Origin: Candidatus Zixiibacteriota bacterium
GTDB lineage: Bacteria > SM23-81
Direction: 5' to 3'
NCBI GenBank assembly: GCA_030628225.1
Contig: DAOVRJ010000127.1
Coordinates: 1-6,993, forward strand
DNA length: 6,993 bases
Part shown: positions 427-4,796 of the stretch, piece after piece
Numbering within the stretch: position 1 is the first letter of the stretch
Layout: each line of letters starts with the position of its first letter
Made by a program: the position numbers and the translations under genes
The notes under the pieces: model-generated
Database searches by the model: none
The model's input: the letters and a program-made list of their open reading frames with translations, nothing else
Told to the model about the DNA's origin: nothing

Positions 427-510
427 CATATAACAGAGCGTATCTGGCTTCTCTACGCTTCGCCCAAATTCCCCTTCGGGGAACTTCAGATACGCTCGAA
501 ACGTTAAATG
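427..510 (+). repeat. attC-like integron recombination site (cassette end)
   Basis: Seen directly are three nested inverted repeats. The outer arms are CATATAAC (427-434) and GTTAAATG (503-510), complementary at 7 of 8 positions. The middle arms are GAGCGTATCTG (436-446) and CAGATACGCTC (487-497), a perfect 11-bp pairing. The inner hairpin is TTCCCC-ttc-GGGGAA (469-483). GTTAAAT at 503-509 fits the integron core site GTTRRRY exactly, and the left arm ends in AAC as an inverse core does. The site begins 24 bases after the trmO stop. Position, length (84 bases) and arm order match attC (R''-L''-variable loop-L'-R'). Two points are atypical: the unpaired spacers are uneven (1 base left, 5 right), and I see no obvious extrahelical base in the L arm. 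It is not a terminator, since no T-run follows on either strand. A REP-like element is the alternative. Confidence 0.72.
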
Positions 511-2917: not shown

Positions 2918-3571
2918 TCATTCGGTACTCCGGTATACTCGATAATCAATCTCCGGGAAGATATTGTCCCTGCCCTCGATCTCCTCCAACCAGCCGCCAT
3001 CGATCCGGCTATCCTTGATCTCCTGATACAACCTGGTAAATCGCAGAATGTGATCCTTGGTCCGGCGTATACCATAGAATGCCGTATCACCCCCCTTCAT
3101 CATAAAAGCCCAATCGCTGCTTTGAGCCAACAAAAGCTCCCGGGCCGCCTGATTCAAGGCCCTGTTCTCCAATGAGGTGGGCTGCGTCTTCTCGTCGGCC
3201 AGCTCCGTCATTCGCTCTGCGGCCTTGTGCAGATGACGGTAAATCCAGTCGTTGCTCCCATCCAACCAAACATCGTTGTAGCCCTTATGACCCCAGCTGG
3301 ACGCAGATGGAGTGGAAACCTGGTGGGTGGGATACATCTCCAGATATTCGCTGAGGGTGATCATTCTGAAGACCTTTTGCTCAAAAGCCACCTTACGCAA
3401 TAACATCTCCAGCCATTGGGGACCCTCATACCACCAGTGACCGAAAAGCTCCGCATCGTAGGGAGCCACCACAATGGGCGGTTTGCCCATGAAATCTCGA
3501 AGATACTCGATCTGCCGCTCCCGGTTGAACATAAAATTCCCGGCATGTTCAGCGGCCTTCTCCCTCCCGCC
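2918..3571 (-). pseudogene. DUF1957 / GH57 branching-enzyme-like gene, N-terminal ~300 codons missing
   Basis: The frame encodes the C-terminal part of a DUF1957 protein (glycoside hydrolase family 57, 1,4-alpha-glucan branching type). Seen are EHAGNFMFNRERQIEYL, then PPIVVAPYDAELFGHWW (GH57 motif 4, whose Asp is the family acid/base), then SSWGHKGYNDVWL, NDWIYRHLHKA, QAARELLLAQSSDWAF, and an apparently natural end, RDNIFPEIDYRVY. Family members run to roughly 520 residues. Here only about 217 codons lie between the DUF4912 stop (TGA 3572-3574) and the end. The N-terminal barrel half with the catalytic Glu nucleophile and the usual start are absent. The homologous frame begins straight after that stop, in the same frame: TGA, then GGREKAAEHAGNF. 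The first plausible start, ATG at 3532 (MFNRER), has no proper RBS; that form would have 204 residues. The RBS-like GGGAGGGAGAA after the TGA is better placed for an out-of-frame ATG. An internal deletion is inferred; an assembly error is the alternative. Confidence 0.8.
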
Positions 3572-4360
3572 TCAGGTCGTTCCCTCAACACCTGCTTCTG
3601 GAAATTGACTGTGTGGCAACAATTTCTCAGGTTTCTTCTGGAGATCACGGGAGCTATTTCCCTGCTCCCTCCCTTCGGAAAGGTCATACATCCTGGCGCA
3701 CTCGTCCCCCACGCTCATCCAGGACTCATCCTGCACATCGGATATGCCGGCACGAGGAGTGGTCACCACGTTGGACCGGGCCAGGGGCGAAAAGCGTTCC
3801 TGGTCGTCCAGCAGACCGATCTCCACACAATAGGAGCGATTAGAGGCGGGAACGTTGATATGCCAGTTATTGCTCCCGTCAGTGATCTCGATATCGAACA
3901 TTCGGCGAGCTTTCCGACCATCGTCAGCCGGGCCGGCTATCTGGTATACCCGGAGAGCCATTTCTAACCCCTGATCTCCTGTGCCCGATGAGATCTGAAC
4001 CTCCATCAGCCGCGCAGCCGTGATCTCCCAGTAGGCAAAAATCCAGTGAGGATCTCGAACCATCAGCACGATTCTGTTATCGCCATAGTTCATGGGGAGC
4101 TCCTGAAACTCGGGAGGTATCGACTCCTCTGGCTTTTCTGGCGGGCTGTATTTAGACTGCTCTACCTTCTGCTCCTCTGTGGACTGGACAACCGGAGAGA
4201 TAGGCTTTTGGGGGGGAGCAAAAATGTCGTGATTCACCCTTCCCCAAAGATGGCTCAACAGCTTCTTCTTGCTCATCGATCGCCATCCGGGAATTCCCGC
4301 TTGCTGAGCAAGTGCCTGAAGCTCTTTTTTAGTTTTGGAGTGCAAATGGCCTCGACCCAT
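3572..4360 (-). CDS. DUF4912 protein with Rho-N/SAP-like N-terminus
   Basis: The product has 262 residues. Residues 9-40 (SKTKKELQALAQQAGIPGW, then SMSKKKLLSHL) form a two-helix motif like the Rho termination-factor N-terminal/SAP-like element, often a nucleic-acid-binding module. A linker rich in P, E and Q (48-85) follows. The DUF4912 domain (about 88-205) shows LPMNYGDNRIVLMVRDPHW then FAYWEI (88-113), and later WHINVPASNRSYCVEIGLL (166-184). From knowledge of the family, DUF4912 genes commonly sit next to DUF1957/GH57 glucan genes, which matches the remnant downstream, but the biochemical role is not established. A link to alpha-glucan metabolism is therefore only contextual. ATG 4360 is preceded on the minus strand by GAAAGG (4368-4373) with 7 bases of spacing and by a sigma-70 promoter about 75 bases upstream. 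The C-terminal tail (about 225-262) is charged and low in pattern. Confidence 0.87.
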   Translation of the reverse strand: MGRGHLHSKTKKELQALAQQAGIPGWRSMSKKKLLSHLWGRVNHDIFAPPQKPISPVVQSTEEQKVEQSKYSPPEKPEESIPPEFQELPMNYGDNRIVLMVRDPHWIFAYWEITAARLMEVQISSGTGDQGLEMALRVYQIAGPADDGRKARRMFDIEITDGSNNWHINVPASNRSYCVEIGLLDDQERFSPLARSNVVTTPRAGISDVQDESWMSVGDECARMYDLSEGREQGNSSRDLQKKPEKLLPHSQFPEAGVEGTT

Positions 4361-4720: not shown

Positions 4721-4796
4721 GCACTCCGAGCTCCGCACTCCGAGTTCCAAACTCTCTCAACTCTCTCAACTCTCCAAACTCGCTCAACTCTCTATC
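4721..4796 (+). repeat. Short tandem repeat tract: 14-bp duplicate then 9-bp units
   Basis: GCACTCCGAGCTCC (4721-4734) is followed directly by GCACTCCGAGTTCC (4735-4748), 13 of 14 identical. Three bases later come five 9-base units: CTCTCTCAA twice, CTCTCCAAA, CTCGCTCAA and CTCTCTATC (4752-4796). The left part also reads as heptamers (CTCCGAG, CTCCGCA, CTCCGAG, TTCCAAA from 4724). The tract stops one base short of the CsgG-like gene's stop codon, so on the minus strand it forms the start of that gene's 3' untranslated region. Confidence 0.8.

Follow-up and report, generated by a model that had tools for sequence, protein, structure and literature searches.

An attC-like site behind a TrmO gene on a bacterial contig points to an integron-like cassette system of ANME archaea and scattered bacteria

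The window analyzed here is an entire contig of 6,993 bases (C290) from a draft bacterial genome of 2.34 Mb in 306 contigs (G000). Its first 402 bases hold, on the plus strand, the 3' part of a TrmO-family tRNA methyltransferase gene (PF01980, E 1.7e-31; TIGR00104 above cut-off), truncated by the contig start. An attC-like recombination site follows at positions 427-510, starting 25 bases past the TAA stop codon (400-402) of the TrmO ORF, and a predicted lipoprotein is encoded behind it in the same direction (572-1216). This second ORF is unclassified, and no relatives were found in the genome contigs or plasmids searched. The original prediction had described nested inverted repeats here, 24 bases behind a stop codon and ahead of a gene in the same orientation. 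The repeats and the gene order are indeed present, at a distance one base longer.

The G+C content is 37% over bases 1-1216 and 54% over the remaining bases. Genes between 1955 and 5796 (a radical SAM gene, the C-terminus of a GH57 gene, a DUF4912 ORF and an unknown gene) are collinear, at 57-80% identity, with those of G001, which belongs to the same family, and neither TrmO nor either of the two lipoproteins was found in the collinear G001 stretch. The window's genome carries bacterial markers, namely topA_bact (828 bits), TrmFO, UvrC, an FtsX fragment, XerC and XerD. The low G+C content at 1-1216, the G001-collinear backbone and the marker genes together suggest that an AT-rich, cassette-bearing stretch adjoins ordinary, native bacterial backbone. 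A chimeric assembly join at 1.2-1.9 kb is possible, the window being at a contig end. Of the GH57 branching-enzyme gene, the window (2918-4360, minus strand) has the C-terminal part only (BE_C), some 40 bases away from the DUF4912 ORF; in G001 (L030, 9005-11678), the two are 1.3 kb apart. The shortening seems to reflect an internal deletion or a gap in the assembly. A short intergenic direct repeat with a 9-base period is found at 4746-4793.

The core-to-core structure of the site spans positions 428-509, with all parts given here as read on the plus strand. The R'' core, ATATAAC (428-434), is followed by a 1-nt spacer (435) and by the L'' arm, GAGCGTATCTG (436-446), which is the perfect complement of the L' arm, CAGATACGCTC (487-497), and covaries with it within the site family described below. 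Two hairpins occupy the interval between the L arms (446-486). The first (GGC...GCC, 446-464) was placed by the consensus fold of 13 archaeal sites and the alignment of the window to the model built from them, and the second, AAATTCCCC-TTC-GGGGAACTT (466-486), by folds and compensatory changes. A 5-nt spacer, GAAAC (498-502), leads to the R' core, GTTAAAT (503-509), which bears out the exact GTTRRRY end that had been predicted. The AAC-ended inverse core also exists, with a one-base departure from RYYYAAC at A430. Pairing of the R arms extends past the 7-bp core (TTCATATAAC / GTTAAATGAA, 9 of 10 positions). Both oddities pointed out beforehand, the uneven spacers (1 and 5 nt) and the perfect, bulge-free 11-bp L arm, were seen.

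Folded as DNA, the bottom strand of the site reaches -19.2 kcal/mol (z -5.9), with none of 200 shuffled sequences as stable, and the top strand -14.9 kcal/mol (z -3.8). The fold is thus far beyond chance, and the bottom strand, which the original prediction had proposed to fold, has no extrahelical base in its L arms. In the second hairpin, an A.C opposition on the top strand becomes a T.G wobble on the bottom strand. A hairpin 25 nt behind a stop codon could also be a transcription terminator or a structured RNA of the 3' untranslated region. We consider this the least probable of the readings weighed here, since no T run follows the stem, an Rfam scan of the window gave no family above gathering scores, the conserved A.C positions weaken the transcribed strand in favor of the other one, and the 3' half of the site varies with the next cassette.

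Related sites were sought by structure. A MAFFT alignment of four sites misplaced one of them (L035), and the covariance model, R1, was built from 13 archaeal sites with the window excluded. This purely archaeal model scored the window site at 87.0 bits (E 3.1e-24, E-values being rough because of a shortened calibration), which makes membership in the R1 family near certain. Of 392 genomes from one archaeal phylum (Methanophagales/ANME and relatives), 101 carry family sites, as do 37 of 336 bacterial genomes; a preceding pattern search had found sites in Ethanoperedens, Methanophagales and Methanosarcinales genomes as well as in G002, a bacterium of the window's phylum. In the 13 archaeal sites, the L stem and the two terminal hairpins form a three-way junction. 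Standard pairs fill 86.7% of its pair cells, a share that drops to 21-43% if the partner is shifted by 1-3 columns, and 42 cells are changed on both sides, compared with 17 expected from shuffles. The L stem lacks any gap or bulge in 47 of 48 family sites, and the R cores include both GTTAGGC and GTTATAC types. In silico, the bottom strand is the more stable one in 58 of 64 sites (mean -2.2 kcal/mol, p 4e-11), whereas random pieces of the same loci lean the opposite way. A near-invariant A.C position of the second hairpin (AAAT/ACTT), read as a T.G wobble in the bottom strand, accounts for part of this bias.

In relatives, family sites occur singly or in short arrays with a spacing of mostly 0.5-1.5 kb. 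Among 63 sites, 58 lie behind an ORF on the same strand, at a median of 35 nt past its stop codon, and two behind an ORF on the opposite strand. In G002, six consecutive sites, one of them weak (20 bits), separate single ORFs (DUF6236, HEAT repeat, DUF2283, methyltransferase, GNAT and pRiA4b-like). Within a cassette, the 5' end complements the 3' end across 16-20 nt (for example, GTTATCCGTAATTCCAGC and GTTATCCGTAGTTCCAGC), with a mean score of 6.8 for ends of the same cassette versus 3.0 for ends of different cassettes (a value reached in 0 of 1,000 permutations). A single site consists of two halves from neighboring cassettes; these halves score 3.1, no better than ends of different cassettes. 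A further set of loci gave 6.7 for the same cassette versus 2.7 for different ones. Such a match would be expected if the cassette were a circle whose ends jointly form a site that is cut between G and TT. The asymmetry of the second hairpin recurs at position 11 of the extended ends, where the commonest mismatch has A at the 5' end and G at the compared 3' end (17 cases) and the reverse is seen once.

Comparison of cassette ends predicts the crossover of the window site at R', between G503 and T504. The extended R'' arm, TGCAACTTCATATAAC (419-434), would then be the 3' end of the TrmO cassette, the only end of it that the window shows. The second cassette (504-1216) would begin with TTAAATGAAAAAATCGGGC, which fits the 5'-end consensus of the family. 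No 3' site of its own was found by an R1 scan of the contig. A decayed second site at about 1235-1305 had been picked by eye from TATCTGGCTT and CAGATGCACTCGAA; it scores only 2.2 bits with R1 (E 2.6) and is therefore not claimed.

A search with the TrmO protein yielded 70 loci, with relatives in archaea and bacteria; the best matches were in Ca. Ethanoperedens, Methanophagales, Deltaproteobacteria, Planctomycetota and WOR-3. Two archaeal loci, L035 (Ca. Ethanoperedens) and L090 (ANME-2c), show the site architecture of the window behind the TrmO stop codon, including the shared word CGCCCAAAT and a near-identical extended R'' arm. Their L arms differ from those of the window and yet pair, perfectly in L035 and imperfectly in L090. 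In L090, TrmO has both cassette ends (5' GTTATATTAAATTGCAAC, 3' TACAACTTCATATAAC) and thus looks like a cassette, and the extended R'' arm of the window is also complementary to the 5' end of this cassette. At a Methanophagales locus (L038, 6400-6440), TrmO shares the 3' flank of the window (TAAATAAAATGCAGATGAATGCAACTTCAT) and diverges exactly at the start of R''.

Scattered copies, such as the 45 sites found across the whole chromosome of one archaeon, could be explained by a repeat dispersed through the genome (REP, MITE or IS end) that folds by chance. By sequence, the window site has no second copy in its contig or genome, and R1 places only this one site on the contig, 427 bases from its start (a CALIN is defined by at least two attC within 4 kb and no integrase). 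The suggested search for more copies thus yielded none on the same contig and two on others, one behind a GNAT gene (C172) and one with EnvC- and FtsX-like genes (C222). A genome with one copy at the sequence level and three divergent members at the structure level does not fit a repeat; nor do a position and strand fixed relative to ORFs, site halves belonging to neighboring cassettes whose outer ends match, or the integrase and attI-like sequence at the starts of arrays described below. We therefore hold a repeat of this kind, including the REP element that had been named as the alternative to a cassette junction, to be very improbable. In the archaeal chromosome (G454, contig C1, 1.92 Mb), the 45 sites are distributed singly or in groups of two to four, not in one long array, and at least two integrase loci are present.

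Among the 392 genomes of the archaeal phylum, none has an IntI above the TIGR02249 cut-off. In many of them, among the matches listed, a weaker IntI relative lies just upstream of the sites and in the same orientation; these integrase-first loci were noted among listed matches, and their uniform direction is illustrative only. The intact integrases (305-380 aa) carry the catalytic-domain motifs LRHSFATH and IYTHVS and an IntI-like tail, KIKSPLD, and those next to family sites lack the IntI-specific insertion. They pass the profile NF040815 (archaeal XerA / integron integrase) with 234-262 bits (cut-off 220), and their best solved-structure matches, over residues 68-319, are VchIntIA and XerA (4a8e, 5hxy). 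A phylogenetic tree places them, archaeal and bacterial ones intermixed, in one clade (94/93) that is separate from IntI (100/100) and Xer (100/98). An N-terminal domain of about 65 residues, largely outside the region covered by the structure matches, resembles HARP at a sub-threshold Pfam score (best 23.9 bits for a cut-off of 25, E 3e-5). The HARP domain is known from the SMARCAL1 annealing helicase. The HARP-like domain is seen in the L220 integrase (residues 1-66) and in the L218 integrase, where a helix-turn-helix (HTH_17) precedes it.

Among the loci listed, the 5' end of the first cassette, as predicted from its 3' end, lies 15-193 bp past the integrase stop codon in 13 of 15, L220 and L278 being the two without a clear end. 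This 5' end directly follows a shared palindromic sequence (for example, TATATACGAAC..GTTCGGATATACCG..|GTTA), which we read as a putative attI-like insertion site. The order integrase, attI-like sequence, cassette and site also exists in the bacteria G489 and G570 and is less clear in G663. Five loci (L219 and L221-L224) carry an integrase ORF of which 105-242 aa are left, without the N-terminal part, next to a retained attI-like sequence and first cassette, so that many platforms seem to be decaying. At L109, L111 and L116 (archaeal genomes G060 and G062), C-terminal integrase remnants of about 35-50 aa end in SSKTTEIYTHVSNRD..KIKSPLD; the L109 remnant is followed by a cassette and a site with non-matching L arms, as if hybrid. 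No cognate integrase was found in the window's genome, where the two matches of the IntI search are XerD and XerC. The best integrase-like proteins of G000 and G002 are only Xer-level, and at E 1e-35 none was obtained from G001 or G003.

These data bear on whether the window holds a canonical integron attC, solitary or left over from a CALIN, that is served by an ordinary IntI. Integrons with attC are already known in archaea and bacteria (PMC9668308), and the GTTAAAT core, the order of R and L boxes, the bottom-strand bias and the position behind a stop codon would all suit such a site. Canonical attC have an unpaired central spacer, a variable terminal structure and extrahelical bases, the latter common to all known attC, and an extrahelical G decides which strand is used (PMC2727003). 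The L stem of the window and of its family lacks any such base, the spacer is lopsided, and the neighboring recombinases lack the IntI insertion; the window's genome offers XerC and XerD only, and no archaeal genome of the set has an IntI above cut-off. R1 was also at background on a class 1 integron locus (L289). Three further loci with a true IntI (L286-L288) gave no R1 match, yet no attC was detected there by the scanner either, which makes them weaker controls than the class 1 locus. A canonical attC is therefore unlikely, although less so than a repeat or a terminator. The cassette junction without an integrase in view that had been predicted holds as a junction site of integron type and not as a canonical attC.

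We conclude, with a probability of about 0.85, that positions 427-510 are an attC-like site at which the 3' end of a mobile TrmO cassette is joined to the start of a second cassette, within an integron-like system whose main hosts are ANME/Methanophagales archaea and which scattered bacteria carry as well. The bottom strand of the site would become single-stranded and fold into a forked hairpin made of the R box, the L box and the two terminal hairpins. It would be bound by a tyrosine recombinase of the IntI/XerA-like clade that lacks the IntI insertion and carries the N-terminal HARP-like domain. Recombination by this enzyme at G|TT of folded sites would, as we propose, release cassettes as circles, which may then enter the attI-like site just behind the integrase gene or integrate elsewhere. 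Strand choice would be favored by the conserved G.T wobbles, which pair only on the bottom strand and would stand in for extrahelical bases. The proposal builds on the observed site family with its structure and covariation, the bottom-strand bias, the complementarity of cassette ends and the order of integrase, attI-like sequence, cassette and site in relatives; from the sequences we infer recombination itself, circle formation and a role for the HARP-like domain. Comparative evidence strongly supports a role of the family in cassette recombination by the adjacent integrases. The cassettes of the window, in whose own genome no cognate integrase was seen, presumably arrived by this route.

More broadly, the family is probably, with less assurance than for the site itself, a second type of integron in ANME archaea and scattered bacteria, with a HARP-domain recombinase lacking the IntI insertion, forked bulge-free sites, strand choice by G.T wobbles, and TrmO-like cassettes moved between domains. 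Integrons are defined and searched for by the IntI insertion and by bulged attC hairpins, which are regarded as acting together. The R1 family seems to do the same job with neither, so that standard surveys may miss it, for example in ANME archaea, and it provides a natural experiment on which components an integron cannot do without. Being common in methane-oxidizing archaea and scattered among bacteria, it looks like a second, little-noticed way of trading genes between domains, and it provides archaea and bacteria that share sediments with a concrete means of exchanging them. In the literature searched (main texts, mostly of open-access papers), no description of this pairing of recombinase and site was found.

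XerA resolves chromosome dimers at dif. The family integrases share its profile (NF040815) and structure match, but they stand before cassettes, end in an IntI-like SPLD tail and have an additional domain at the N-terminus. Archaeal integrons with attC have been reported, most of them without a visible integrase (Ghaly 2022, PMC9668308). Like them, the present system has cassettes arrayed in archaeal MAGs, places attI after the integrase gene and involves inter-domain gene traffic, and the window's genome, like most of theirs, has cassettes and no visible integrase. The IntIs of that study were chosen by the IntI-specific domain, which is used to define IntI, and its text does not name ANME or Methanophagales (PMC9668308); some of its 539 attCs may belong to the R1 family. 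As in bacterial integrons, single-ORF cassettes run in one direction with a site behind each ORF, R and L boxes fold on the bottom strand, crossover would take place at G|TT, as deduced here from cassette ends, and a recombinase and insertion site stand at the array start, here in relatives. Unlike in bacterial integrons, the integrase has an extra N-terminal domain and no IntI-specific insertion, the sites have a conserved fork and no extrahelical bases, with lopsided spacers of 1 and 5 nt in the window, the match between cassette ends extends beyond the core to 16-20 nt, and many cassettes are scattered over the chromosome. The system would thus work like an integron while failing two canonical defining features, the IntI insertion and the extrahelical bases.
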